Below are positions 19,864-45,986 of a stretch of 64,000 nt of DNA, piece by piece. The stretch comes from a virus. The position numbers and the translations under genes are program-made. Below the pieces are notes generated by a model. That model saw only the letters and a program-made list of their open reading frames with translations. It ran no database searches and was not told the DNA's origin. Within the stretch, counting starts at the first letter, position 1; each line of letters starts with the position of its first letter. The DNA is taken from the IMG/VR virus record IMGVR_UViG_3300003322_000423, positions 34,590-98,589 of that record; one strand, written 5' to 3'.

Positions 19864-19937
19864 TGGTGGCGCCGCCCCGAGTCGCACGGGGGTCAAAGGG
19901 TTATGAGCCCTTTATGGAACTCCTCCACTACAGCGCA
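19864..19937 (-). tRNA. tRNA-fMet (CAU), initiator type, CCA encoded
   Basis: The anticodon stem-loop GGG-CUCAUAA-CCC has the three consecutive G:C pairs of initiator tRNAs. Positions 1 and 72 are U and C and cannot pair, the other hallmark. 2-71 to 7-66 all pair, A73, and ACCA is present in DNA. T loop UGCGACU is unusual (G55). Confidence 0.85.
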
Positions 19938-19938
19938 G

Positions 19939-20012
19939 TAGTTCTGACGGGATTCGAACCCGTGATCTTCTCCTTATGAGGGAGCTGCCCTAAACCACTA
20001 GGCCACAGAACT
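19939..20012 (-). tRNA. tRNA-Met (CAU), elongator
   Basis: Acceptor AGUUCUG/CAGAACU, A73, loop CUCAUAA. Could be Ile (CAU, lysidine-modified), but a separate Ile (UAU) gene in the array already reads AUA. One nt from the initiator gene. Confidence 0.85.
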
Positions 20013-20019
20013 ATAGAAA

Positions 20020-20080
20020 GGAACAATGTCAGGTACAGCCGTGTCTCCTGATGTGGCCTGGCCCAGCTACTCATTGTTCC
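20020..20080 (-). other. Structured spacer, outer stem 9 bp
   Basis: GGAACAATG (20020-20028) pairs with CATTGTTCC (20072-20080), with an inner TCAGG/CCTGA pair. No ORF. Confidence 0.55.
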
Positions 20081-20083
20081 TTG

Positions 20084-20158
20084 TTCCACCGACGGGATTT
20101 GAACCCGTGACCAACACATTATCAGTGTGTCACTCTTACCAGACTGAGTTACGGTGGA
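20084..20158 (-). tRNA. tRNA-Ile (GAU)
   Basis: Stem ACACA/UGUGU around CUGAUAA; acceptor UCCACCG/CGGUGGA, A73. Confidence 0.92.
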
Positions 20159-20162
20159 GATG

Positions 20163-20228
20163 TGACGGTTTTCCTGAGGCCCTACTTAAAGGATGCTGCG
20201 CTCTTGCCCCTCAGAGGTCGAACCGTCA
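20163..20228 (-). other. Structured spacer with nested inverted repeats
   Basis: Outer TGACGGTT (20163-20170) with AACCGTCA (20221-20228); inner CTGAGG (20174-20179) with CCTCAG (20209-20214). Confidence 0.6.
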
Positions 20229-20237
20229 AACCTCGCG

Positions 20238-20310
20238 CGACCTAGACGGGGATCGAACCCGCGACTTCCACCTTGACAGGGTGGTGCTCTAACCACTGAA
20301 CTACTAGGCC
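20238..20310 (-). tRNA. tRNA-Asp (GUC)
   Basis: Stem CCACC/GGUGG around CUGUCAA; acceptor GGCCUAG/CUAGGUC, G73 as expected for Asp. Confidence 0.93.
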
Positions 20311-20618
20311 AAAACCCTGCCCACAAGGAACAGGATGGGTTATAAATTATACACATATTTCGTAAGGTTCAAGAGACTTTCCCACCTGGTACAGAGGTGT
20401 TCTCCATTGCTACTTACGATCCTTTATTACCCGTCTCTTTTCAGGGAGCGATTCCGTGTACCCGGCAGACGGAGCGTGATGTGTTTACGCCGCGTGGAGC
20501 TAGACCGAATTGCACGGTCCTCCGGAAGCCTCCGCATGCGGCCCTACTTCCGTCGAAACTAAATTAGCCCCTTGCCCGGTTTTTGTGTATACCTGAACCG
20601 TGGTGACAAAACAGGTAG
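20311..20618 (-). other. 308-nt tRNA spacer rich in inverted repeats, no gene
   Basis: No ORF with a ribosome site and no recognisable tRNA. Several hairpins: AAGAGAC with GTCTCTT (about 20371-20438) enclosing CACCT/AGGTG; CCGT/ACGG; GCGT/ACGC; CGGAAG/CTTCCG enclosing CCGCATGCGG; ACCTG/CAGGT near 20590-20615. Confidence 0.5.
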
Positions 20619-20691
20619 TGGAGATGACAGGACTCGAACCCGCCGCCTTCTGCGTGCAAAGCAGACGCTCTTCCCGATGAGCTACATCCCC
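20619..20691 (-). tRNA. tRNA-Ala (UGC)
   Basis: Stem UCUGC/GCAGA around UUUGCAC; acceptor GGGGAUG/CAUCUCC, A73. Confidence 0.93.
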
Positions 20692-20747
20692 AAACCAGGT
20701 TTTTGATAACGCAGAACCCCGTCTCCCGAAAACTGCGTGTCTAAGTG

Positions 20748-21863
20748 TTATTCGTTGCAATTACAGTCTAATTGTAGCGGAGGTTCCCAGATTTGTCCAT
20801 CCCCTGGAACCTGCGATTTAGGCTGATAGTCCAGCGGACTGAACAACAGATTTGCATTCGTCTCGTTACGTGTACCAAGCCATAGATCTACACCTTGATA
20901 TGGTACACCGTCGACCACGCTGACTGTTCTGGGCTGTCCGCCACATGAGGCCCCGTTGAAGATGCGACGCCCGTATACCGGCGCACCCCAACCGACGTTC
21001 CCGGGAGCTGTCCAGCCGCTGTAGAGACTGGAACTAGTGGCATATCCGATCGGGGTACCTGCACAGTAGCCGCATCCCTGATCAGAATATGTTATCACAT
21101 ATTCCTGTGATCTTTCATCCCAGAAACCGCCGGGACCTTCCGTATGACTCAGACTTGCCACATTCGTGACACCTAGAGCCGTCCCCCCGCTACCCCAGTA
21201 ATTCAATTGCTGGATATTCATTCCAGTATTGCCGGGAAGAGTGCAGATGATAGCTGGTGGTCCGGAGCGAGCCTGGATTATACCGAAGTCCCCGTTGCCC
21301 GTACAGATACTCAGATTAGGTTTGTTGTATGAGCCCCAGGGCTTTCCTGCATTAGGCCCACAAGGTCCGGCAGGCCCGTTGCATCCCATAACGTTATACC
21401 CGCTCTGGGCGCCGTCAGACTTGTGCCTAGGGGCGTTGAACCAGAGTATGAACGCGCCGTCGTTGTGGCCCCAGCCTGTACGCTGGATCATCCGAGGATT
21501 GAAACATCCCTGGCCGGTACCACCACACGTGGTCTGCCACGAAACCTTCTTGTACGGGTCCTGTTCGTTAGGGTTGAACAACAGCTTAGGTTCAGACCAT
21601 GGACCCTCTATGCTCTGGGAGGTGCTCACACCGAAGCCACAGAAAGGTGTGTTTTTGATACTCCACTGGAAACCACATTTGTACATGGTTCCGTACAGGT
21701 AATAGGTGTTCCCGAACTTGGCTAAATGTCCATCGTGAAGATCTACACCCTGAATGTTCAGAGGTCTAGGATCAGACTGAGTCTCGGCGTTTACAGGTCC
21801 GGAAAATAAAAATACAGTTGCCGTTACGACAACTGCGACAAGTAATCTATATAGCCGTTTCAC
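20748..21863 (-). CDS. Secreted beta-propeller protein, GH43-like
   Basis: 371 residues. Residues 1-26 form a clean Sec signal peptide (basic start, LLVAVVVTATVFLF core, VNAE cleavage site). VDLHDGHLAKFGNTYYLYGT resembles blade 1 of GH43-type five-bladed propellers; the blade pattern repeats (FILWFNAPRH, GGFWDERSQEYVITY, VDLWLGTRNET). Many cysteines suggest disulphides in the mature protein. It lies inside the tRNA array between Ala and Ile genes, so it looks like an inserted 'moron' gene. Catalytic residues cannot be assigned safely. Confidence 0.7.
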   Translation of the reverse strand: MKRLYRLLVAVVVTATVFLFSGPVNAETQSDPRPLNIQGVDLHDGHLAKFGNTYYLYGTMYKCGFQWSIKNTPFCGFGVSTSQSIEGPWSEPKLLFNPNEQDPYKKVSWQTTCGGTGQGCFNPRMIQRTGWGHNDGAFILWFNAPRHKSDGAQSGYNVMGCNGPAGPCGPNAGKPWGSYNKPNLSICTGNGDFGIIQARSGPPAIICTLPGNTGMNIQQLNYWGSGGTALGVTNVASLSHTEGPGGFWDERSQEYVITYSDQGCGYCAGTPIGYATSSSLYSGWTAPGNVGWGAPVYGRRIFNGASCGGQPRTVSVVDGVPYQGVDLWLGTRNETNANLLFSPLDYQPKSQVPGDGQIWEPPLQLDCNCNE

Positions 21864-21884
21864 TGCCCTCTCCTAATAGATAAG

Positions 21885-21958
21885 TAGGCCCGTCGGGATT
21901 TGAACCCGCATCACCTGTATATAAGACAGGCGCTCTTACCTGATTGAGCTACAGGCCC
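21885..21958 (-). tRNA. tRNA-Ile (UAU)
   Basis: Stem CCUGU/ACAGG around CUUAUAU; acceptor GGGCCUG/CGGGCCU with G1-U72, A73. Reads AUA directly without lysidine, uncommon in bacteria. Confidence 0.85.
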
Positions 21959-22133
21959 ATTGACACTAACCAAGTCTAGGTGTCTGTCCGTGTCATCTGT
22001 CTCCGACTACCGGCTTGTCACTTGGAAATTCTCTCTGATCCGGATGACACTTCGTCCAGAGAACGGGCCTGTGTCGTGGCCCCAGTGCTTGCAGTATCTT
22101 ACTGACAGATGGTGTTCAGACTTACAAGCAAAG
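21959..22133 (-). other. 175-nt structured tRNA spacer
   Basis: Inverted repeats TGACAC/GTGTCA, ATCTGTC/GACAGAT (spanning most of the spacer) and GGGCC/GGCCC. No gene. Confidence 0.5.
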
Positions 22134-22218
22134 CGGAAGCGGTGGGACTCGAACCCACAAGGATTGGTTACCCAGCCGCTTTCAAGGCGGTGTATCTCTC
22201 CCATGTGACAGCACTTCC
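22134..22218 (-). tRNA. tRNA-Ser (UGA)
   Basis: Stem CCGC/GCGG around CUUGAAA, long variable arm, acceptor GGAAGUG/CGCUUCC, G73. Confidence 0.92.
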
Positions 22219-22221
22219 AGG

Positions 22222-22614
22222 TTACTTCTTAAATCTTTGCCATGTTCGTTCTCTGTGGCAATTAGAACAAACCAAATCACACTTAGCTATTTCGGCTTTG
22301 ATATCTTCAACTGTAGCATGTCTATAGGTGATACCTATGTTGAATAACTTAATCTCATCAGGTCTGTGATCAAAATCCATAACATAGTGGGGGTACTGAA
22401 CGCCACAATCCATACAGGGCTTACCCGCCTTGTAGTCTTGGATGAATTGACGCTTTTCACCCCGCCTAACATGCTGTCTCGATATATTCTTATTCTTTTG
22501 ATCTACGCCACAGTAGTAGGACACAGTGGATTTAGAACATCCTAGTTCCTTAGCTATAGCGTTGTACGTGTAGCCAGCTTCTCTTAACCTAAAGATATCT
22601 GCCTCATATGTCAT
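22222..22614 (-). CDS. HNH homing endonuclease with N-terminal HTH
   Basis: 130 residues. The N-terminal YTYNAIAKELGCSKSTVSYY is a helix-turn-helix. C-terminal CMDCG, MDFDHRP and LVCSNCHRERT form the zinc-binding HNH nuclease. It sits between tRNA-Ser and tRNA-Cys with 3 nt to the former, a typical homing insertion in a tRNA array. Confidence 0.9.
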   Translation of the reverse strand: MTYEADIFRLREAGYTYNAIAKELGCSKSTVSYYCGVDQKNKNISRQHVRRGEKRQFIQDYKAGKPCMDCGVQYPHYVMDFDHRPDEIKLFNIGITYRHATVEDIKAEIAKCDLVCSNCHRERTWQRFKK

Positions 22615-22637
22615 GAGGCAAGTATATCAAAGGTTCG

Positions 22638-22711
22638 AGGCCATTACCAGGATCGAACTGGTCCAATGTAGATTTGCAGTCTACCGCTTACTTCCAGCAA
22701 GCTCAATGGCC
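22638..22711 (-). tRNA. tRNA-Cys (GCA)
   Basis: Stem GUAGA/UCUAC around CUGCAAA; acceptor GGCCAUU/AAUGGCC, U73 (Cys identity base). Confidence 0.93.
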
Positions 22712-22713
22712 AT

Positions 22714-22779
22714 TAGGTGCAGGTGCCGGGACTCGAACCCGGGAGTCATGACCTCCGACCGTCATCGCACCATTCCCAG
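22714..22779 (-). tRNA. tRNA-like element lacking a normal D arm
   Basis: A perfect T arm (CCGGG-UUCGAGU-CCCGG) and a 5-bp AUGAC/GUCAU stem with an 8-nt loop containing U-CGG. Only 14 nt remain before the neighbouring tRNA, too few for acceptor and D arms. GGUGC and GCACC at the ends can pair. Either a truncated gene or a D-arm-less tRNA of uncertain identity (perhaps Pro CGG). Confidence 0.4.
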
Positions 22780-22864
22780 CGGAAATGACAGGATTCGAAC
22801 CTGCGGACCTGTTACAGTCTCTGCTTTAGCAAAACAGTGCTTTCACCCACTCAGCCACATTTCC
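22780..22864 (-). tRNA. tRNA-Ser (GCU)
   Basis: Stem CUGUU/AGCAG around UUGCUAA, long variable arm, acceptor GGAAAUG/CAUUUCC, G73. Confidence 0.92.
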
Positions 22865-22867
22865 ATG

Positions 22868-22938
22868 TTCGTCCTACGGATTTCGATACCGCATCTTCGG
22901 GCACGTTCCCCGACGTTCTACCTTTGAACTAAGAACGA
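22868..22938 (-). tRNA. Divergent tRNA, anticodon position ACG, no U33
   Basis: Acceptor UCGUUCU/AGGACGA pairs fully, A73; D arm GUUC/GAAC; anticodon stem UCGGG/CCCGA. The loop is GAACGUG, so position 33 is A rather than the near-universal U, and the T arm has a U53:U61 clash with A54. Nominally Arg (ACG), but a normal Arg (ACG) gene lies at 23095. Possibly decayed. Confidence 0.5.
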
Positions 22939-22941
22939 ATG

Positions 22942-23023
22942 TGCTAGAGGCCGGATTTGCACCGACACAGCCTGAGGCGACACTTTTACAGAGTGCGGGG
23001 CTCCACTAATGCCCAGCTCTAGC
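22942..23023 (-). tRNA. tRNA-Tyr (GUA)
   Basis: Stem GCACU/AGUGU around CUGUAAA, long variable arm, acceptor GCUAGAG/CUCUAGC, A73. T loop UGCAAAU has G55 like the initiator tRNA. Confidence 0.9.
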
Positions 23024-23094
23024 GTGTGGGACCTTTTAACCGGAGTCCCAGACGGAGCATCTTCGGACCTCGTCCCGGTATGTGCTATACCCCG

Positions 23095-23167
23095 TACACC
23101 TAGAGAGACTCGAACTCCCATCCCTGGTTCCGTAGACCAGTGCTCTAATCCTTTGAGCTATAGGTGC
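23095..23167 (-). tRNA. tRNA-Arg (ACG)
   Basis: Stem CUGGU/ACCAG around CUACGGA; acceptor GCACCUA/UAGGUGU, A73. Confidence 0.9.
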
Positions 23168-23285
23168 ATTGCCCTAAGCGCCTTGGTGGACGCCTTGCAA
23201 ATCCGGGCCAGACTCAGAGACTCTTGCTAGCTAGAATCTCACAGCGACGTGTCCGTATGAGGTAACAGCGGTCGACTGGCTTGCG

Positions 23286-23357
23286 TCCGGGTGGGGATAA
23301 TCGAAATCCCTATACGACTTCCCAAAAGTCGCGTGTTAACCATTACACTACACCCAG
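23286..23357 (-). tRNA. tRNA-Pro (UGG)
   Basis: Stem CGACU/AGUCG around UUUGGGA; acceptor CUGGGUG/CACCCGG with C1-G72, A73. Confidence 0.92.
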
Positions 23358-23361
23358 TCAG

Positions 23362-23432
23362 AGCGATATAGGAGAATCGAACTCCTGTAGTCTGTTTGGA
23401 AGACAGAGGCTTTACCATTAAGCTAATATCGC
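23362..23432 (-). tRNA. tRNA-Gly (UCC)
   Basis: Stem UCUGU/ACAGA around CUUCCAA; acceptor GCGAUAU/AUAUCGC, U73. Confidence 0.93.
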
Positions 23433-23482
23433 ATTGCTATTTTCGTCCACGTAGGCGCCCTGGAACCGGCATAGCTGCCTCG

Positions 23483-23554
23483 TACCCAGTAACAGATTCG
23501 AACTGTTGACACGCGCGGTGTAAACGCGATGCTCTTCCCCTGAGCTAACCGGGT
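23483..23554 (-). tRNA. tRNA-Val (UAC)
   Basis: Stem CGCG/CGCG around UUUACAC; acceptor ACCCGGU/ACUGGGU, A73. Confidence 0.88.
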
Positions 23555-23604
23555 TTATGGGCCCCCGGAAAGTTTATAGTCTGTCGGTTCCAGCCCTAGA
23601 CTTG

Positions 23605-23677
23605 AGCCCCCAGTACGATTTGAACGCACGACCTGCCGCTTACAAGGCGGCTGCTCTAACCCCTGAGCTATGGAGGC
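23605..23677 (-). tRNA. tRNA-Thr (UGU)
   Basis: Stem GCCGC/GCGGC around CUUGUAA; acceptor GCCUCCA/UGGGGGC, U73. Confidence 0.92.
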
Positions 23678-23690
23678 ATGTATTTAGTTA

Positions 23691-23762
23691 TGTGACCACA
23701 GGGAATCGAACCCTGATCTTGCGGACCACAACCGCGTGCACTAGCCATTGTGCTATGGTCAC
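23691..23762 (-). tRNA. tRNA-His (GUG)
   Basis: Stem GCGG/CCGC around UUGUGGU; acceptor GUGACCA/UGGUCAC preceded by G (position -1). Base 73 is A rather than the usual C. Confidence 0.88.
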
Positions 23763-23764
23763 CG

Positions 23765-23838
23765 CTCCCGATCTATGACTCGAACATAGAACCTCTGCGT
23801 CCAGAGCGCAGCGCAACTACCAATTGTGCTAATCGGGA
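23765..23838 (-). tRNA. tRNA-Gln (CUG)
   Basis: Stem CUGCG/CGCAG around CUCUGGA; acceptor UCCCGAU/AUCGGGA with U1-A72 and G73, as for Gln. Confidence 0.88.
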
Positions 23839-23852
23839 TTGATTCAGTTATA

Positions 23853-23955
23853 AGACCTTACTACCCGACGACCTCGTGCCGCCCTAACCTAACCATGAAC
23901 GAGAGGGGTTGCAACCACTGTGACATCTCGTTCCCCTACTTTCCTCGTAAGGTCT
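23853..23955 (-). other. Structured spacer with nested stems
   Basis: Outer AGACCTTAC (23853-23861) with GTAAGGTCT (23947-23955); inner GAACGAGA (23897-23904) with TCTCGTTC (23926-23933). Confidence 0.6.
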
Positions 23956-23957
23956 CG

Positions 23958-24044
23958 CTCAGGTGGCTGGAATTGAACCAGCGAAGGATTTCTCCGAAAC
24001 GGTTAACAGCCGCACCCAACATCGCCAACGGTTGGCCCACCTGA
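23958..24044 (-). tRNA. tRNA-Asn (GUU) with a long variable arm
   Basis: 87 nt. Acceptor UCAGGUG/CACCUGA with U1-A72 and G73 (Asn-like). D arm CCAA/UUGG with a 12-nt loop. Stem GCGG/CCGU around CUGUUAA. T arm GCUGG-UUCAAUU-CCAGC. Between the anticodon and T arms lie about 16 nt with a GGA-GAAA-UCC hairpin, a class II arm normally restricted to Leu, Ser and Tyr. Confidence 0.8.
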
Positions 24045-24049
24045 TCGCT

Positions 24050-24475
24050 TTATGCAATTATATCTGAACCCGAGTACAACCCTGTTCGGTACAGACGCTT
24101 TGCGGTCTTACACCTATCACATCTACAGGTCATCTCGTGATACATTCTAGCAGTGCCGTGGTAGTATTCACCTCGAATACCTTTATTCCAAGGCGTGATG
24201 GCACCGTCTCTCCACTGCTGTTTAGTCTTTTCATCATGACAAGTTTTACACACTACTTCACACTTGTCAAGTTCTTCTAGAATACTTTTCCAGGATCTAT
24301 CTAAACCCGCCCCGGATAAAGTAAACGACTTTGTAGTGGGGTCTTTGTGGTTAAGCTCTAAATCATCAGGACTGCCACAGTCTACGCATTCACTACCGGA
24401 CAGGTCAAATAATTTTTGTCGACGTGTTTTACGTCGATTGGCCATATAGGTCTTCATATATTCGTTAGTAGGCAT
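24050..24475 (-). CDS. HNH homing endonuclease
   Basis: 141 residues. A basic N-terminus is followed by CVDCG, LELNHKDP, VVCKTCHDEKT (HNH core) and a second CRCDRC zinc pair near the C-terminus. It ends 6 nt before tRNA-Asn, the second HNH gene inserted in the tRNA array. Confidence 0.88.
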   Translation of the reverse strand: MPTNEYMKTYMANRRKTRRQKLFDLSGSECVDCGSPDDLELNHKDPTTKSFTLSGAGLDRSWKSILEELDKCEVVCKTCHDEKTKQQWRDGAITPWNKGIRGEYYHGTARMYHEMTCRCDRCKTAKRLYRTGLYSGSDIIA

Positions 24476-24513
24476 ACATTCATTTTAACATGAAATGCTC
24501 TACCAGTAAAGAG

Positions 24514-24584
24514 CAGGCCCAGAAAGAGTCGAACTTTCCCTTTGAGACTTGGAAACTCATGTGCTTCCGATACACTATGGACCC
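24514..24584 (-). tRNA. tRNA-Trp (CCA)
   Basis: Stem UGAG/CUCA with a U31-U39 clash, loop UUCCAAG; acceptor GGGUCCA/UGGGCCU, G73. Confidence 0.85.
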
Positions 24585-24628
24585 GTGAGAGACCATGATA
24601 ACACATAGTCTCTGTTTTGTCTATTCTG

Positions 24629-24698
24629 CCGGGATACTGGGATTCGAACCCAGGTAGGGCTTCAGGGACCCGGTACTTGGCCGCTGTACGATACCCCT
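24629..24698 (-). tRNA. tRNA-Gln-like (CUG) with C33
   Basis: The 5' half closely follows the bacterial tRNA-Gln layout (GGGGUAUCG...AGCGG...ACCGG). Stem GGGU/GCCC with loop CCCUGAA puts C at position 33. 1:72 is an A-G mismatch, G73. Second Gln (CUG) gene; may be weak or decayed. Confidence 0.6.
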
Positions 24699-24792
24699 AC
24701 CCACAAGGTCGACTTCTTGCGGGCTCCCCTCAGCGTTTCGAACCGCATTGAGGGGCAACAGAAAACGTGTCAGCTTTCGCTGATCAAACCGG

Positions 24793-24853
24793 GCACCGAG
24801 GATATCTTAAACCAGACTTCTAATCCCGCAGGACGTTGTCACTGGCTCGGTGC
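24793..24853 (-). other. Structured spacer stem
   Basis: GCACCGAG (24793-24800) pairs with CTCGGTGC (24846-24853). Upstream in the same 197-nt spacer, CCCCTCA/TGAGGGG and CAGC-TTTC-GCTG hairpins also occur. No gene. Confidence 0.55.
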
Positions 24854-24895
24854 GCCCCCTTGTGCACAGGGCGCTAAGGCGACCCAGGGGGTTTG

Positions 24896-24968
24896 CGCTC
24901 TTGGAGGGATTCGAACCCCCGACCTTGACGATAGAAGCGTCTTGCTCTTTCCACTGAGCTACAAGAGC
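24896..24968 (-). tRNA. tRNA-Arg (UCU)
   Basis: Stem GACG/CGUC around CUUCUAU; acceptor GCUCUUG/CAAGAGC, G73. Confidence 0.92.
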
Positions 24969-25034
24969 TTGGAGCCTGCACGTTGCCCTCAATGGCAGGC
25001 TCTATTCAGTTGTATTGACCCATCCTAAGGTCAG

Positions 25035-25109
25035 TACCGGTGACGGGGCTCGAACCCGCGTTCTTCTGACTGAGAATCAGATGAGCTTTGCCAACAGCTC
25101 CACACCGGC
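25035..25109 (-). tRNA. tRNA-Glu (CUC)
   Basis: Stem UCUGA/UCAGA around UUCUCAG; acceptor GCCGGUG/CACCGGU, A73. Confidence 0.9.
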
Positions 25110-25113
25110 AAGC

Positions 25114-25172
25114 CCACAGCTTTTATTTCGGTACCTTCGGGCTGGAGTTCCCAGGTCTTACTTAGGCTGTGG
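25114..25172 (-). other. Structured spacer stem
   Basis: CCACAGC (25114-25120) with GCTGTGG (25166-25172), inner CTGG/CCAG hairpin. Confidence 0.55.
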
Positions 25173-25210
25173 CGGTATTCCAGAGTTACTTCGAATAGCC
25201 TCTAGAACCG

Positions 25211-25287
25211 TATCCGAGACCGGAATCGAACCGGCGTCTTCTCCTGATTGAAAGTCAGGGCACCCCTGCCAACAGAGTAACTCGGAC
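25211..25287 (-). tRNA. tRNA-Glu (UUC)
   Basis: Stem CCUGA/UCAGG around CUUUCAA; acceptor GUCCGAG/CUCGGAU, A73. Confidence 0.92.
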
Positions 25288-25378
25288 TTGGACCGGTTTT
25301 TGTTTCTAACCAGAGCACTCCGGGGGCTACCCGGCACTATACTGGCCCTAATTCAGAACCCGTCCCCGAAACTGAACG

Positions 25379-25454
25379 TACCTGTGAAAGGACTCGAACC
25401 TTCAAACCTTCTGATCCTAAGTCAGACGCCTCTACCAAATTGGGCTACACAGGC
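25379..25454 (-). tRNA. tRNA-Leu (UAG) with a short variable loop
   Basis: Stem UCUGA/UCAGA around CUUAGGA; acceptor GCCUGUG/CACAGGU, A73; T arm GAAGG-UUCGAGU-CCUUU. Only 6 nt (AGGUUU) separate anticodon and T arms, whereas bacterial tRNA-Leu normally has a long variable arm. Confidence 0.82.
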
Positions 25455-25459
25455 TTAAA

Positions 25460-25535
25460 ACCCTGGGCTGGAAGCATCCAGCAGTATGGAAACTTATAGT
25501 GGTTGACTTGTGAGGGAAAACGCACTACCCAGGGT
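25460..25535 (-). other. Spacer folding as a three-way junction
   Basis: Outer ACCCTGG (25460-25466)/CCAGGGT (25529-25535); inner hairpin GCTGG/CCAGC (25467-25482); inner hairpin TAGTG/CACTA (25497-25527). Confidence 0.6.
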
Positions 25536-25538
25536 CAG

Positions 25539-25612
25539 TACTCCGACTCGGACTTGAACCGAGGACACGCGGATTAAGAGTCCGCTGCTACTACCAACTG
25601 AGCTACCGGAGC
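25539..25612 (-). tRNA. tRNA-Lys (CUU)
   Basis: Stem GCGGA/UCCGC around CUCUUAA; acceptor GCUCCGG/UCGGAGU, A73. Confidence 0.92.
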
Positions 25613-25916
25613 GAGAAAAAACTATTCTAGCATACCCCGAAGGGTGGCGGGTGGGGTGATTTCCCACAACAGAGGGCAGGCCATTAGCCGATTTAATTAC
25701 CTCTGAACCACACGTTAGCCGCTAAGCACGAATTCAGGCGCATCGCTAAATGCCCTTCCGTCAACTTCCTCACCGATTGGCTCTGGATAAAGGGGTGGCC
25801 CTTTGGGGTGCCCGCCCAAGCTTACGTTTGTCTTCCGCCGTGTGTACAATCCATCCCCCGATCTGCATAGGGGATCGTTTCTGTCACCGCCCACACTTCC
25901 CGTCGGAAGTGTGTTG
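25613..25916 (-). other. 304-nt structured spacer, no gene
   Basis: No convincing ORF. Right end: GTACAA (25844-25849) pairs with TTGTAC (25914-25919), enclosing CGATC/GATCG and a perfect 9-bp CACACTTCC/GGAAGTGTG hairpin (25892-25913). AAAGGG/CCCTTT hairpin near 25790-25806. Confidence 0.5.
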
Positions 25917-25996
25917 TACCCACAGAGGGATTCGAACCCTCACGCCATAAGGCATCGCTTTTGAGGCGACTGACTATACCGTTCGTCTATGCGGGC
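25917..25996 (-). tRNA. tRNA-Leu (CAA)
   Basis: Stem UCGC/GCGA around CUCAAAA, long variable arm, acceptor GCCCGCA/UGUGGGU, A73. Reads UUG; no UUA-reading Leu tRNA is seen in this window. Confidence 0.9.
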
Positions 25997-26131
25997 CTCA
26001 CCCTTGATTGCGCTACCACGCTCAAGGGCTTACCTCAGCTCTAGGTGAGGTCACAACAGCTCTCTAAACCCGGAGCCAGGGCGCCTCACGGTTTATGGTA
26101 GCTCCGTGAGAACTTCAAGCTTGTGTCACCC

Positions 26132-26162
26132 CTCTGCCGGGGGGAAAGGAAACTCGGCAGAG
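26132..26162 (-). terminator. Hairpin after the DUF7448-like gene
   Basis: CTCTGCCG/CGGCAGAG stem directly after the stop at 26171. The rest of the 25997-26170 spacer has CCCTTGA/TCAAGGG, CCTCA/TGAGG and TCACGG/CCGTGA hairpins. Confidence 0.5.
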
Positions 26163-26170
26163 AGGGACGG

Positions 26171-26572
26171 CTAAAGGTCTTCCACCATTATATGGAAACC
26201 GTATGCATAGTAGAAAGGGTTCCCCGCTGACCAGCCAACATCAAGCTTGAGCACATCACCCATGTCGGCGTAAATGTGCCAAGTCTGGTATCCGTCAGTC
26301 GTACCCACGCCCGTGATAATGTGGTCAACCATTTCGGGGTGGAGCAGAAAACCTTCAAGTTCTGTATAGGCGCAACAGTCGCTCTCACCGACAAGGGTCA
26401 CTGCTTTACCGTTGTCCAGTATGATCCGGCCTTCGGGTGACACGCTGACGATTTTGTGGCCTACGACAGCTTCAGCAAGAGCATTCTTGCTGTCAACCAT
26501 TGTACCGTTGTCTGTTTCTTCGTCAAGGATTTCCTCTTTGTACAGACGTTTGTGCTTGTACTTTTTGGCCAT
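26171..26572 (-). CDS. DUF7448-like protein of unknown function
   Basis: 133 residues. DCCAYTELEGF, the YADMGDVLKLDVGWS stretch and the ending GNPFYYAYGFHI recall a small domain I associate with actinophage DUF7448 proteins (from memory). Start ATG 26572 follows AAAGGAG. Lies within the tRNA array between Leu and Phe. Confidence 0.7.
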   Translation of the reverse strand: MAKKYKHKRLYKEEILDEETDNGTMVDSKNALAEAVVGHKIVSVSPEGRIILDNGKAVTLVGESDCCAYTELEGFLLHPEMVDHIITGVGTTDGYQTWHIYADMGDVLKLDVGWSAGNPFYYAYGFHIMVEDL

Positions 26573-26591
26573 GATAACTCCTTTCAAAAAG

Positions 26592-26663
26592 TAGCTCCCC
26601 GGAGACTCGAACTCCGCACTCAGGCACTTCACGCCCGTGCTTTTCCTGATAAGCTAAAGAGCC
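26592..26663 (-). tRNA. tRNA-Phe (GAA), first gene of the array
   Basis: Stem CGGGC/GCCUG around GUGAAGU; acceptor GGCUCUU/GGGAGCU, A73. Confidence 0.9.
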
Positions 26664-32663: not shown

Positions 32664-33139
32664 TCCCACCACACCCGCCCTGTAGGGTTGACCGTAATGT
32701 ATCGATAGTATGGACCCATATTGCCCGCAGGCGGCTGAAATTCAGGGAACGTAAGATACTTTTTCACATGTACCTCTACTTCAGGCGTAAGCCTGTCAAC
32801 AAACCGTTGCTCTTCCTGTACAGGTGGCCATTTACGCGATACCCATCCGAAGAGCTTACTGTCTCGATGGTTGTGCTTCCATAGCTGCCATGCGCTGGTC
32901 CATACAGGTATCGTACGGTCATACATGTGTACAGCTTTGACTTTGACAGTTTCGTCGGCCAGCTTGTCAGCCCATAAGTCTTTATGGAATTGAAACGCCA
33001 CACCGGCACCGAAATGGTACAGACTGTCTGTTACCTGTTCAACTTCAATACCCCGGACAACCTCTTCCGGAAGATACTGTTGCATACCTACACGAATTGC
33101 CTCAAGAGTATGTGTTTGATACTGATTGTATAAGCTCAC
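32660..33139 (-). CDS. Unknown protein next to ThyX
   Basis: 159 residues, aromatic-rich (FQFHKDLWADKL, WTSAWQLWKHNH). No family recognised. GTG start overlaps the thyX stop (GTGA), so it is co-translated. Confidence 0.7.
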   Translation of the reverse strand: MSLYNQYQTHTLEAIRVGMQQYLPEEVVRGIEVEQVTDSLYHFGAGVAFQFHKDLWADKLADETVKVKAVHMYDRTIPVWTSAWQLWKHNHRDSKLFGWVSRKWPPVQEEQRFVDRLTPEVEVHVKKYLTFPEFQPPAGNMGPYYRYITVNPTGRVWWE

Positions 33140-33831
33140 GGGGCCACTCTGCCATTATCATCGAAAGCTTTGAAGGCTAGGGGAAAATTAGGTCTTGCTA
33201 GAGCTTCCATTTCTTCAGCCACCATCTGAATCTCTGCCAGAGGGAATGTCGGCACGGTACTAAGCGGGTGTGCCCACCGAAGAGAAAGGAAGGAAAACAA
33301 AGATCGCAAGTTGCATGTAGCGTACATCGTCTTGTAAATAGAGACCGGAAGATGGTCACGGGCCACCTCTCGGGCAATACCATCCTGAAGCGATTCCCGG
33401 TACATAGCCCAATCGAATCGAGCCGTACGCCTGTGGCGTTCCTGTTCACGCTCTATCTGCTCTGGAGACCCTAGTTCAAACGTGTACGAGCCGGGTTTGC
33501 CAGTTTGACGGAGGTTGCGACTTTGTCCAGGCACGTAGAACACAGGGTCCAGTTCACGGTAACGTGCGGATTCTTCGTTATAAGACCAACCAACGCGGTG
33601 CCTGTGAAATTCGTAAAAAACGAAGAGTGGTGCGGACACGCGGAAAGTAAACGAGTTGTGCTCAAATGGGGTTCCATGCCTGTCCCTCATAAGGAAGTTG
33701 ATAAGTCCGGGCACACGGTCGATTGATCGCTGTCCTGTATTGGGGAGGCCACCACCACCATAGTTGGATACCCAGGCAGCCTCTGCAATTCGTACGTCGT
33801 CCCCCATGATTTCGATTAGCTCGACATCCAT
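33136..33831 (-). CDS. thyX: Flavin-dependent thymidylate synthase
   Basis: 231 residues. RHRVGWSYNEESARY is the ThyX motif (RHRxxSxNExSxRY, with one residue inserted by eye), and HGTPFEHNSFTF and LRSLFSFLSLRWA match flanking blocks. Makes dTMP from dUMP using FAD and methylene-folate. Forms a nucleotide cluster with MazG and the deaminases. Confidence 0.95.
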   Translation of the reverse strand: MDVELIEIMGDDVRIAEAAWVSNYGGGGLPNTGQRSIDRVPGLINFLMRDRHGTPFEHNSFTFRVSAPLFVFYEFHRHRVGWSYNEESARYRELDPVFYVPGQSRNLRQTGKPGSYTFELGSPEQIEREQERHRRTARFDWAMYRESLQDGIAREVARDHLPVSIYKTMYATCNLRSLFSFLSLRWAHPLSTVPTFPLAEIQMVAEEMEALARPNFPLAFKAFDDNGRVAP

Positions 33832-34673: not shown

Positions 34674-34961
34674 TTACTCCCAATCTAAGGGGTTTCTAAG
34701 ATGTGCGAGAATAAAAGTAGCACCAGTCTTCAAGTCCTGGTCTCGCTGCCACATAGCCGAAGTTTCCGGATAATCACCCTGTTCGGCACCCCACGTAGAC
34801 ACATACCTCGAACCCAGATTCGCAAGAATCTGTGTATGCAAATCGAGCATATCAGGGAAAGACATACCGTTAGCATGCTTGAGGGCTAGATACCCCGCGA
34901 TTGCCTCGGGCGTTGTGAATTCGGGGATTTTGTCCACTCCGGATTCATCATCTTGCACCAC
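34674..34961 (-). CDS. Unknown protein
   Basis: 95 residues, with TPEAIAGYLALKHANGM and FPDMLDLHTQILANLG predicted helical. Start is uncertain: GTG 34961 overlaps the protease gene by 76 nt; GTG 34937 or ATG 34865 are alternatives. Confidence 0.55.
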   Translation of the reverse strand: MVQDDESGVDKIPEFTTPEAIAGYLALKHANGMSFPDMLDLHTQILANLGSRYVSTWGAEQGDYPETSAMWQRDQDLKTGATFILAHLRNPLDWE

Positions 34962-35515
34962 GTGTCATTCACTTTCTGCTGATCTTCATCAGCTTGTCTG
35001 ATCCAACGCTCTTTGTCCGTGTGAATGCGTTTGAGAAAATCCTTTGTGGTTTCTGACTTTCCCCGCTTAGTGTAGCTCCAATTAGCCAGATCCACAAGAG
35101 CTGGCCAGTTGTCTACCGTATGAACCGTGTAGTGGTAGTGATAAAGGACTCTGGCATGTAAACGCCTCCACTGCTCGTTGTGGCCTTTTCCCACACCGAT
35201 GTAGCCATGGCACAGCTCGTGAAGGATTGTCGCCCGGAAACGGTCGGTTTCGTCAACCACATCAGGGTTGACCCATATATCAAATTCCATAGAGTTATTC
35301 GGACTGGGGTTGCAGGCGGCACGTAACAGCGACCCTTCCATTTCTAATGAACGAGTCACCTTGTCCCTGTAGTACTTTGGTAAGTCGTTCAGGTCTGAGG
35401 TGACTCGTCTGAGGGTGTTCCATGTATCCACTCGTCCGCCAGCCAGGATAGTAGCCCGTACAAGTGAATCGGCTTTTGTGAAGTCATCTTCTGGAAAGTC
35501 AAGGTTGTATCTCAA
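34886..35515 (-). CDS. SprT-like zinc metalloprotease
   Basis: 209 residues. TILHELCHGYIGVGKGHNEQW gives HExxH plus the third His ligand of SprT/Spartan-type proteases. Known relatives act on DNA-protein crosslinks or on processing of structural proteins; target here unknown. TTG start overlaps the previous stop (TTGA). A second SprT-like gene is at 54344. Confidence 0.85.
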   Translation of the reverse strand: MRYNLDFPEDDFTKADSLVRATILAGGRVDTWNTLRRVTSDLNDLPKYYRDKVTRSLEMEGSLLRAACNPSPNNSMEFDIWVNPDVVDETDRFRATILHELCHGYIGVGKGHNEQWRRLHARVLYHYHYTVHTVDNWPALVDLANWSYTKRGKSETTKDFLKRIHTDKERWIRQADEDQQKVNDTWCKMMNPEWTKSPNSQRPRQSRGI

Positions 35516-35706: not shown

Positions 35707-35840
35707 ACTTTGTCCACCACGTAGGGAACACCGGGCTTGATCACTTTGTGTAATTCAATTAGCTTATTGATGTTAGAGGGGTTGGCTTGGGAGGTCCAGG
35801 GGACGTACTCACGGCCATTCCATGTTTTTAAGATGTACAT
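35703..35840 (-). CDS. 45-residue unknown protein
   Basis: Reads MYILKTWNGREYVPW... ending VPYVVDKV. ATGA overlap with the next gene and 13-nt overlap with the previous one fit the operon. No family. Confidence 0.6.
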   Translation of the reverse strand: MYILKTWNGREYVPWTSQANPSNINKLIELHKVIKPGVPYVVDKV

Positions 35841-36361
35841 TCTCTCTTCTTAAGGTACTCCGCCCATCCTTCAGTATCACCCATCATCGAACGGCCTTTA
35901 TCGTACCTGTTATGACAACGCCCACACATCGGGGTATAGTCTTCCAGATCCTCATATTGGCCCGTCAGATTAGCCCACGCTTGGGCTCGTTCACCACAGA
36001 AACAACGGTATTCTTTAGCAGAGCCTTTAGTTTCATACAGGTGTCTGTGAAGAGTGTAGTATGAAGGAATAACAGGGGTTTTACGAATGGAAGTATTCTT
36101 TTTATTTGAATTGTTTTCCCCTAGTTGGGCACATGTTTTAGAACAAAATCGCCCTACGTACTTGTTATCTCTACGCGCAAGAAAGTCTTTGGTGCAGAGT
36201 TCGCATTTACGTAGCTCTAGAGGGTGTTTATGTTGAGGATCGGTAGCGTCATCGTATATAAACTGAGCCCTTGACTTACGCCTACACCCAGATAGGTGAG
36301 GGCCTCTACGACGTGGTTCTATTATCTCTACATTACATTCAGGGCATGTCCATGTATTCAC
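35828..36361 (-). CDS. HNH-type endonuclease with zinc fingers
   Basis: 177 residues. CPECNV at the N-terminus, CELCTKDFLARRD and CSKTC in the middle, then HRHLYETKGSAKEYRCFCGE and PMCGRCHNRYD, an HNH-like core. GTG start is predicted to be leaderless. Confidence 0.75.
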   Translation of the reverse strand: MNTWTCPECNVEIIEPRRRGPHLSGCRRKSRAQFIYDDATDPQHKHPLELRKCELCTKDFLARRDNKYVGRFCSKTCAQLGENNSNKKNTSIRKTPVIPSYYTLHRHLYETKGSAKEYRCFCGERAQAWANLTGQYEDLEDYTPMCGRCHNRYDKGRSMMGDTEGWAEYLKKRECTS

Positions 36362-36406: not shown

Positions 36407-36631
36407 TCACTGGCCTCCCTTCTGGATGTATCCCGCCACGAACTCCTCGGCGTTCTCCTCAAGTACATCGTCGATATCCGACATGAGGTCGTCGAGTTCG
36501 TCATCTATCTTGGCCAAAGTCTCTTCAACAGAAGCATCTAGTTCTTCGTTGCTAAGATCTTTGGCCTGTACTTCTTCAACTTCTTCGGTGGTCTTACTGG
36601 ATTGTTTACTTACCTTCTCTTGGTTACTCAT
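36407..36631 (-). CDS. pup: Prokaryotic ubiquitin-like protein (Pup) homologue
   Basis: 74 residues, highly acidic. The C-terminal part reads DDLMSDIDDVLEENAEEF and ends AGYIQKGGQ, which matches the conserved half of actinobacterial Pup from memory, including the terminal Gly-Gly-Gln that Dop deamidates to Glu before PafA ligates it to lysines. The N-terminal half is disordered-looking, as in host Pup. No PafA or Dop is visible in this window, so it would depend on host enzymes. ATG overlaps the end of the LAGLIDADG gene; GGAG..AGGAC ribosome site. A short host-like length and intact terminus argue for function. Confidence 0.93.
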   Translation of the reverse strand: MSNQEKVSKQSSKTTEEVEEVQAKDLSNEELDASVEETLAKIDDELDDLMSDIDDVLEENAEEFVAGYIQKGGQ

Positions 36632-37001
36632 GTCCTAACTCCTTTAAGCGACTCAATACATTATCTATCTGGCCCTGTCGACGCTTTCCCATATGTGGGC
36701 GTACCAGCTTACACAAGGCCAATACGTCCTGTACTGCGGCGACTTGCCAGTGATAAGCGTCCTTACAATTTGGACGCTTATATTTGTAGACTGATACACT
36801 ACCGATACCCGTGGTGATATGTAAACGAGAAATCACGTCTTCGTCCGTCATGTTACATACCACCTTGGGCCTTAACTGGCCGCCGTGACTGGCCACATAG
36901 AAAGAGCCCTCACCTTCCAGTAGACCAACGACCCACATAAGGTCTATATCCTCTAAAGGTTTTAGCTCACACGGCTTAGGAGGTCTACCTTTATGGCTCA
37001 T
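36624..37001 (-). CDS. LAGLIDADG-type homing endonuclease-like protein
   Basis: 125 residues. WVVGLLEGEGSFYV is the LAGLIDADG helix with following strand. Single copy, so it would act as a dimer. ATGA overlap with the RuvC-like gene. Confidence 0.8.
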   Translation of the reverse strand: MSHKGRPPKPCELKPLEDIDLMWVVGLLEGEGSFYVASHGGQLRPKVVCNMTDEDVISRLHITTGIGSVSVYKYKRPNCKDAYHWQVAAVQDVLALCKLVRPHMGKRRQGQIDNVLSRLKELGHE

Positions 37002-37423
37002 TGGGTCATCCTTAGGTATCTGCGATAGCTGCAACAGTGGGACAAAGCACTGAACGCGTCTTTACGTCCGGGGTCTGTCTTCAGTTCATCTATTGTACCG
37101 CCCATAAGTTGAGCCGCTTCCCGCTGACCTGATAGCCGGTGTTGCTCAACCCGTATGACAGGGTCGGCAGTTCCCCACCCCCACCCGGTCTTAGCAGCGT
37201 ACTTGAGGAATCCGACGATCTCAATAGTAGCCTTAGCCTCTTTGGTGAGATGTGAGCCACTCCGGTAGTCCTCTATAAGGACTACGTCGTCTCTGCCGCC
37301 CTCATCCTCCAGAACATTCCACGCCTCTATAGGGTTGGCAAACTGAGTTGCATAGAAGTCTATGCCGTCTAGCCATGCAACGCCTGTAGCCACTGCTCCC
37401 GGATCAAAACTCCATATGGTCAT
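36998..37423 (-). CDS. RuvC-like Holliday junction resolvase
   Basis: 141 residues. WSFDPGAVATGVAW, VVLIEDYRS and GRKDAFSALSH supply the acidic residues of the RNase H-fold resolvases. Start TGATG-coupled to the gene before. Confidence 0.85.
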   Translation of the reverse strand: MTIWSFDPGAVATGVAWLDGIDFYATQFANPIEAWNVLEDEGGRDDVVLIEDYRSGSHLTKEAKATIEIVGFLKYAAKTGWGWGTADPVIRVEQHRLSGQREAAQLMGGTIDELKTDPGRKDAFSALSHCCSYRRYLRMTQ

Positions 37424-44760: not shown

Positions 44761-44943
44761 TCATTCCATAGGTCCATCGTCACATTCCTCACAGAAGGCA
44801 AAGGCTTTTGGCATGTCGTCCCACTCTACATCTATCACGCAGTAGTTGAGACATGTTCGGTGGAAAAACTTGTAGCAACCATCACAAGCTACGTCATCTA
44901 ATGCGTCCTGAAAAGGTAAGCCGCAGTCTGTGCATGTGTTCAA
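44761..44943 (-). CDS. PHD/RING-like zinc finger protein
   Basis: 60 residues. CTDC ... VACDGC ... FFHRTC ... CEEC gives the C4-H-C3 ligand order and near spacing of a PHD finger, a domain rare outside eukaryotes. Almost the whole protein is the finger. Coupled to the sigma-like gene (overlap of 4 nt). Confidence 0.65.
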   Translation of the reverse strand: MNTCTDCGLPFQDALDDVACDGCYKFFHRTCLNYCVIDVEWDDMPKAFAFCEECDDGPME

Positions 44944-45986
44944 GGCTGTTCATCCCATTTCCACAGGGCTGATTCCGGGGGAATATCAGCCTCCGTCTTG
45001 TTAGGGTATGCCGACATATAATTGCAGATCTTGCAGTACCGACGATTGGATTTATAGCCCCGGATTTCATGGTCCCGCTTGCAGTGAGTCTTTACCTCTC
45101 GGGGCTTGCGGGGCTTTCTACGAGCGGCCTGACGCTTACGTGTGGCTTCCTGGCAGATCATGCAACGCTTACTGGAAGTCCCGTTGACATTGGTGAATAC
45201 TTTTGTGTTTTCAGGGGTCCGCTTGTGACCGTTTACACACTGTTCCTGGTATTCCTCAGGAAAGAGATGTACTTTAACCGCGTGATGTGCGGCCCGGATC
45301 TTTCGCATACCTGAGGATGAACCACCTGCCAGACCGAGCATAGCCGCTATTTCCTTGGCGTTGAGACCTAGGACGTAGTGCCAATACAGTACCTGTCGCT
45401 CCTCAGAAGGCAGATCTTCCAGAAGCCCTTTGAAGGACATGTCAGCTATCAAGTCTGACTCGAACGACGTGGTCACAGACCCGTAGATGTCGTTTTCGTT
45501 CTCCAAAGTGATAGGTCCTATCGTGTAGGCATTGTGGTCAATTCGATCACGGCCGTTGTATATGGCATGATTGACACCCTTACCCTCTCGCATCTTTTTC
45601 CGTTGAATGGAGACAACGGAAGATGAGATTCCAGTGGACTGCACGATATACTTATTGGTCGGTTCCTCCCCATGGACCGATTCGTATTCAGCTATGCACT
45701 GCTTGATCTTTTCTCGGGTCTTGTCCCCTTGAGCATCTCTACGGCCGTCCCGGGACATAGGAGGCGCTCCTGTAGAGCGTCGGCGTCCCTGCCCGGACTC
45801 GGAGATGAATGCCACGGCCCACAGTTTTGCCCTGTGCGCTACATGCCGAAAGTCGTCGTTTCCGTCCTCAATATCACGCCATGCCCGGATCATGCCCTCT
45901 TGGAAGGCATCGTCATATTCACTGTGACCCCTGTAACTAGCGAGAGATGTGATCAGATACCGTCGAATCTTTTCGATGTCCACCAT
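44940..45986 (-). CDS. RNA polymerase sigma-factor-like protein with C-terminal zinc sites
   Basis: 348 residues. EYDDAFQEGMIRAWRDIE is sigma region 2; EEPTNKYIVQSTGISSSVVS resembles region 3; LEDLPSEERQVLYWHYVLG then AKEIAAMLGLAGGSS is region 4 with its HTH. Two C-terminal zinc-knuckle units (CVNGHKR...CMIC and HCKRDHEIRG...CKIC) are extra. Probably redirects host polymerase to phage promoters. Confidence 0.85.
   Translation of the reverse strand: MVDIEKIRRYLITSLASYRGHSEYDDAFQEGMIRAWRDIEDGNDDFRHVAHRAKLWAVAFISESGQGRRRSTGAPPMSRDGRRDAQGDKTREKIKQCIAEYESVHGEEPTNKYIVQSTGISSSVVSIQRKKMREGKGVNHAIYNGRDRIDHNAYTIGPITLENENDIYGSVTTSFESDLIADMSFKGLLEDLPSEERQVLYWHYVLGLNAKEIAAMLGLAGGSSSGMRKIRAAHHAVKVHLFPEEYQEQCVNGHKRTPENTKVFTNVNGTSSKRCMICQEATRKRQAARRKPRKPREVKTHCKRDHEIRGYKSNRRYCKICNYMSAYPNKTEADIPPESALWKWDEQP

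Follow-up and report, generated by a model that had tools for sequence, protein, structure and literature searches.

A phage-encoded Pup without partner enzymes that may act through the pupylation system of an actinobacterial host

Introduction

Bacteria have a counterpart of ubiquitination in pupylation, and the locus described here raises the question of what a tailed phage would do with a gene for Pup, the prokaryotic ubiquitin-like protein and small tag by which actinobacteria mark proteins for the proteasome, when the enzymes that handle this tag are not found in its genome. In the open-access literature that we searched, links between pupylation and phage infection are essentially unexplored, and no paper describing or discussing a phage Pup was found (subscription papers and preprints lay outside the scope of the search). 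An earlier note, made from the DNA alone, had called such a gene undescribed in phages; this holds for the open-access literature but not for GenBank, where the copy of Streptomyces phage Dagobah carries a Pup annotation. As the Pup family is known and the Dagobah copy is annotated, phage Pup is not wholly unseen; what appears to be new is an orphan phage Pup that is recurrent, altered in some lineages and, it seems, acquired on several occasions. We propose, with a probability of roughly 0.55, that the phage feeds a genuine Pup into the pupylation system of its actinobacterial host, where conjugation, targets and benefit to the phage are inferred.

Results and discussion

A genuine Pup gene on a tailed-phage genome

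The stretch of DNA analysed here (the window, 64,000 nucleotides) corresponds to positions 34590-98589 of a 98,589-base tailed-phage record. Its pup gene occupies positions 36407-36631 on the minus strand and translates from an ATG start into 74 residues, MSNQEKVSKQSSKTTEEVEEVQAKDLSNEELDASVEETLAKIDDELDDLMSDIDDVLEENAEEFVAGYIQKGGQ, with DDVLEENAEEFVAGYIQKGGQ as the C-terminal end before the stop. The earlier note had read this open reading frame as a 74-residue Pup with a Gly-Gly-Gln end, and both parts of that reading were borne out: the frame is exact, it closes with ...IQKGGQ-stop, so that GGQ stands at the very C-terminus, and the product exceeds the curated cut-offs of Pfam PF05639 (E=2e-18, 67.5 bits, cut-off 27) and NCBIfam TIGR03687 (E=3e-15, 55.9 bits, cut-off 41.45). 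The latter match covers residues 44-74, the C-terminal 30 or so residues over which hits had been expected. The top match among solved structures is M. tuberculosis Pup in 3m91 (phmmer, E=9e-11), and none of the PHROGs families is well matched. Judged by sequence, the resemblance goes far beyond chance and confirms the product as a genuine Pup. A ribosome-binding site, AAAGGAG, can be read from the sequence at 36639-36645 (minus strand), 7 nt before the ATG; promoter-like sites around the gene are no more frequent than expected by chance.

The codons of the conserved C-terminal region (residues 44-74; 36410-36502, minus strand), delimited by the TIGR03687 match and by invariant alignment columns, comprise the helix region and the IQKGGQ end, in which the lysine at position -4 of the QKGGQ/E motif is kept as K71. 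Partly overlapping with this region, residues 28-47 (36491-36550, minus strand) form a NEEL motif with an extended acidic helix, which we regard as a phage-type extension on the basis of the NEEL counts given below and of a helix predicted with confidence from about residue 31. AlphaFold2 models residues 5-70 as a single helix, with low pLDDT for residues 1-30 (56-59) and higher values for residues 31-70 (block means 80, 95, 92 and 86). The window Pup resembles bacterial Pup, for example that of M. tuberculosis (3m91), in its C-terminal helix region, DIDDVLEENAEEFV, in its terminal GGQ and in a charged N-terminal half, putatively of the disordered type. It differs from bacterial Pup in its NEEL extension, and related phage Pups differ further by loss of the -4 lysine or by helix duplication; moreover, it is phage-borne, lies outside an Mpa-Dop-Pup-PrcBA locus and has no enzyme partners in its genome.

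The record encodes a terminase, portal, major capsid and tape measure protein (phrog_38, 104, 10 and 305, respectively) as well as a scaffold, tail spike, endolysins, primase, Sak4-type ATPase, exonuclease, and a family-A type DNA polymerase whose exonuclease subunit is separate. The large terminases nearest to that of the window phage belong to the Streptomyces phages Yara, PHTowN and Wentworth (about 50% identity), which makes an actinobacterial host likely, an inference that rests on the terminase only. Two further features of the window are a cluster of twenty-five tRNA genes within about 7 kb (19864-26663, minus strand), two adjacent Met-type tRNAs among them, and a sigma-70-like protein of 348 aa (44940-45986, minus strand; PF08281, 9e-7), possibly a phage transcription factor.

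Partner enzymes are not found in the phage records searched

In bacteria, pup is usually encoded together with Dop, Mpa/ARC, PrcBA or PafA, none of which accompanies the window gene (the family itself is defined by sequence). The earlier note had seen no PafA or Dop, and a profile search extends this to the entire 98,589-base record, in which the PafA/Dop family PF03136 was not found. Nor was PF03136 found in 17 further Pup-bearing phage records searched whole, or the proteasome family PF00227 in 15 such records; these records may be fragments. The fetched neighbourhoods of viral Pup genes contained no relatives of Mpa, Dop, PafA, PrcA or PrcB, and no phage-borne PafA/Dop appeared in viral contigs scanned with Actinomadura Dop, a query that reaches close relatives only. 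As relatives of PafA/Dop, of the proteasome subunit and of Mpa are absent from the records and loci searched, the phage Pup can act only via the host.

The proposal of the earlier note that the protein probably enters the host system gains support from its identity as a Pup, its phage origin and the absence of PafA/Dop. In such a scenario, host Dop would deamidate the C-terminal glutamine of the phage Pup to glutamate and host PafA would then ligate it to lysines, in line with the reported ability of PafA to ligate a GGE end, or a GGQ end after the action of Dop (PMC3511204). Tagged proteins would be passed to the host Mpa-proteasome or, in hosts without a proteasome, meet whatever fate pupylation entails there, and the extra supply of Pup, timed by the phage, would raise and redirect the tagging of host proteins in infection. 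Pup of the known family binds the coiled coils of Mpa and is threaded N-terminus first. Free Pup is reported to be unstable and to have escaped detection in M. tuberculosis extracts (PMC5358908), so that added Pup could shift the flux.

A Pup-bearing host is consistent with the proximity of the terminase to those of Streptomyces phages and with Dagobah infecting Streptomyces coelicolor. A match to Pup was obtained in only 160 of 397 sampled actinobacterial genomes, however, and the presence of the pathway in the host is therefore not certain. Two of these 397 genomes, G156 and G199, gave two Pup matches each, which could reflect prophage copies or mixed assemblies. Sequence alone does not reveal the targets of the tag or how the phage would benefit, whether by clearing away host factors, by easing host control or by gaining amino acids.

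Phage Pups keep a ligatable end and are modified in part

The comparison set 28 distinct phage Pups against 128 bacterial ones from across the phylum. Thirteen of the 28 phage proteins end in GGQ and fifteen in GGE, so that all 28 are of the ligatable type. The excess of GGE over bacterial Pups (45/128) is not significant (p=0.09), so that no preference of phages for the Dop-independent form is claimed. An alignment of 33 phage and bacterial sequences shows D54, L57, E58, N60, A61, F64, Q70, G72 and G73 to be invariant.

Other features set some phage Pups apart. The -4 lysine, present in 128/128 bacterial Pups, is replaced in 7/28 phage Pups, by arginine in six and valine in one (Fisher 3e-6; counted by lineage 4/16, p=1e-4), and the NEEL motif occurs in 6/28 phage Pups, that of the window included, and in 0/128 bacterial ones (p=2e-5). 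These p values are generous, as the tests followed inspection of the sequences. Free M. smegmatis Pup can itself be pupylated, on K61, and the K61R exchange abolishes the di-Pup band, while lysine-to-arginine Pups are still able to modify PanB (PMC4783102); it is plausible that phage tags without the -4 lysine escape conjugation to each other. A tandem duplication of the helix is firm in the L131 Pup (p about 0.001), probable in that of L144 (p=0.015) and only marginal in that of Dagobah. PF05639 matches the L131 and L144 proteins twice, at positions 35-69 and then weakly at 3-53 and 8-54; the respective genes lie at 6881-7111 of L131 and 2715-2951 of L144.

These features bear on whether the phage protein is a tag or an inhibitor. 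It might saturate the system, flooding Dop, PafA or Mpa and blocking host pupylation, which would protect phage proteins or ease host stress control. Such a role would fit with the absence of the partner enzymes from the phages, and the modified forms found elsewhere, with a duplicated (L131, L144) or extended helix, could bind these partners more strongly. The window Pup, on the other hand, has no significant helix duplication (p=0.12), and the GGQ/GGE end retained throughout the phage set speaks for a tag: a blocker would have no need of it, which disfavours a pure binding decoy. We consider saturation possible but unlikely.

Pup recurs in phages of differing gene content

Scans of IMG/VR located Pup on 39 further contigs, including some of 163, 174 and 296 kb. 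Representatives fall into 14 groups when two shared flanking proteins are required and into 6 when one suffices. L097 and L098, two contigs of separate IMG/VR samples, have the same Pup sequence and near-identical terminase and portal genes. A tape measure protein of 2123 aa, encoded at L011 372-6743, shows matches of endolysin type and LysM type around residues 1561-1691.

A search of a phage collection (50,697 records) yielded a single isolate with Pup, Streptomyces phage Dagobah, whose host is Streptomyces coelicolor and whose gene HUN42_00036 (QMP84414.1) bears the GenBank note 'ubiquitin-like protein Pup'; the words 'ubiquitin', 'Pup' and 'proteasome' are all absent from the text of the Dagobah paper (PMC7650747). 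The L093 and L144 Pups recovered it as queries, whereas tblastn with the window and L097 Pups gave no match in the collection, a failure probably due to masking of the acidic stretch as low-complexity sequence. The Dagobah protein shares with the window Pup its phage origin, the NEEL motif and the lack of PafA/Dop in the phage, but it ends in GGE, has valine at -4, counts 78 aa with a second helix copy of marginal significance, and belongs to another phage and gene neighbourhood. A search of plasmids with bacterial Pup matched only one chromosome-sized record.

The T4-like contigs (L001-L008 and L093) also carry an orphan Pup without PafA/Dop; it differs from that of the window in its GGE end, arginine at -4, length of 58-59 aa and position between uvsY and uvsW. 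These contigs encode a gp23-type capsid gene (63% to Pelagibacter phage Mosig) and UvsY (PF11056, 8e-19), and the helicase adjoining pup is read as UvsW by sequence and place.

Elsewhere pup keeps company with virion genes, lying immediately upstream of the large terminase in L155, L152, L136 and L096 and between head genes and a phage capsid gene in L138. Such proximity to terminase, portal or capsid genes would suit a Pup that the phage puts on its own proteins, either as part of the virion or its assembly or in order to set when these proteins are turned over. The window gene lies amid DNA-metabolism genes and small ORFs, distant from the head genes, and the T4-like copies have the uvsY-uvsW setting described above, which renders self-tagging improbable as a general explanation.

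Probable captures, and purifying selection in two phage groups

To place the phage proteins, we built a tree of phage Pups and 64 bacterial Pups on 66 columns. The best tree requires 7 changes between phage and bacterial labels, and branches with good support make at least 2 of them unavoidable. The T4-like Pups are nested within a particular bacterial Pup clade (support 92/91), so that theirs is likely a separate capture, and the Pup of the 174-kb phage groups with two bacterial Pups (98/90). The tree thus favours several captures of Pup from bacteria, the number of which remains uncertain since many forks are unresolved at 66 columns; the data neither establish nor exclude a single clade of NEEL Pups (AU p=0.31).

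Within the T4-like group and the terminase-linked group, dN/dS is about 0.1 in most pairs, with the lowest values in the C-terminal 30 codons and most change in the N-terminal half. Pup is under purifying selection in these two phage groups. The Dagobah-L144 pair departs from this pattern, with no excess constraint on its C-terminal 30 codons.

The surroundings of the window gene suggest some mobility. The stop of the upstream ORF (36624-37034, minus strand; 136 aa), a candidate LAGLIDADG-like/HNH-family endonuclease (phrog_5046, 6e-21), overlaps the pup start by 8 nt, and the downstream ORF (35828-36361, minus strand; 177 aa) has weak zinc-finger/HNH-type matches (phrog_4160 of unknown function, 3e-6; phrog_1271 HNH, 6e-6). 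The HNH and LAGLIDADG neighbours named in the earlier note are hence present as described, but on weaker support, Pfam LAGLIDADG_1 (0.016) falling below the cut-off. The mobility that it had inferred from them receives some backing from a related 71.7-kb contig (L094/L127). This contig has twelve proteins in common with the window phage, among them ThyX (33136-33831, minus strand; PF02511, 3e-37; 59% identity), a SprT-like protein (34886-35515, minus strand; PF10263, 3e-7; 34% identity) and the exonuclease-Sak4 block. A small ORF (36998-37423, minus strand), RuvC-like by eye only and without Pfam match, has a counterpart at 10818 of L127 (33% identity). The Pup of L094/L127 is orthologous to that of the window, with the same AKDLSNEEL segment but a GGE end and arginine at -4, and its gene adjoins an HNH gene at another place in the gene block. 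As the sites differ in otherwise syntenic genomes, pup appears to have moved within them.

Endonuclease-like neighbours in both genomes could also mean that pup is a mere passenger: taken from a host, it would be worth little to the phage and would travel with the homing-type genes next to it. Pup was not found in four isolated phages among the nearest terminase relatives of the window phage, which fits with this notion and indicates that Pup is not essential for such phages. A gene of little value would, however, hardly be maintained at a dN/dS of about 0.1 in two phage groups or recur in 6 to 14 gene-content groups, and we therefore regard this explanation, too, as doubtful.

Significance of an orphan phage tag

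If phage Pup does enter host pupylation as proposed, then a tag that comes without its ligase, is maintained by purifying selection in at least two phage groups and was apparently captured more than once would make the host Pup-proteasome system something that phages either target or use. A bolder generalization, to which we would give even odds, is that actinobacterial phages repeatedly took up Pup and made it an instrument of takeover, an orphan tag, altered in several lineages, with which the phage reprograms the degradation of proteins in the infected host. The modifications would then include loss of the -4 lysine, precluding Pup-on-Pup conjugation there, an already deamidated GGE end and a doubled helix. 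In the Bil system, bacteria attach a ubiquitin-fold protein to the proteins of phages. The phage Pup likewise concerns protein tagging at the phage-bacterium interface, but here the tag is brought by the phage, and Pup is unrelated to the ubiquitin-fold tag. As Dagobah is an isolate on Streptomyces coelicolor, the role of a phage Pup is directly testable, and the naturally occurring forms that lack the -4 lysine or carry two helix copies would be useful reagents for the biochemistry of PafA, Dop and Mpa.

That bacterial DNA was filed or assembled as virus does occur, as with MT835496 in the phage collection, but the window's record also contains virion genes, the surroundings of pup are syntenic with L127 and Pup occurs in Dagobah, an independent isolate, all of which leaves practically no room for such an artefact here. 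MT835496 itself was rejected as a source of phage Pup, as it represents a bacterial Mpa-Dop-Pup-PafA operon. In this record, labelled 'Bacteriophage sp.' (L100; MT835496.1, 37639-49716), no proteasome core gene lies between Pup and PafA, and the DNA looks like bacterial chromosome.
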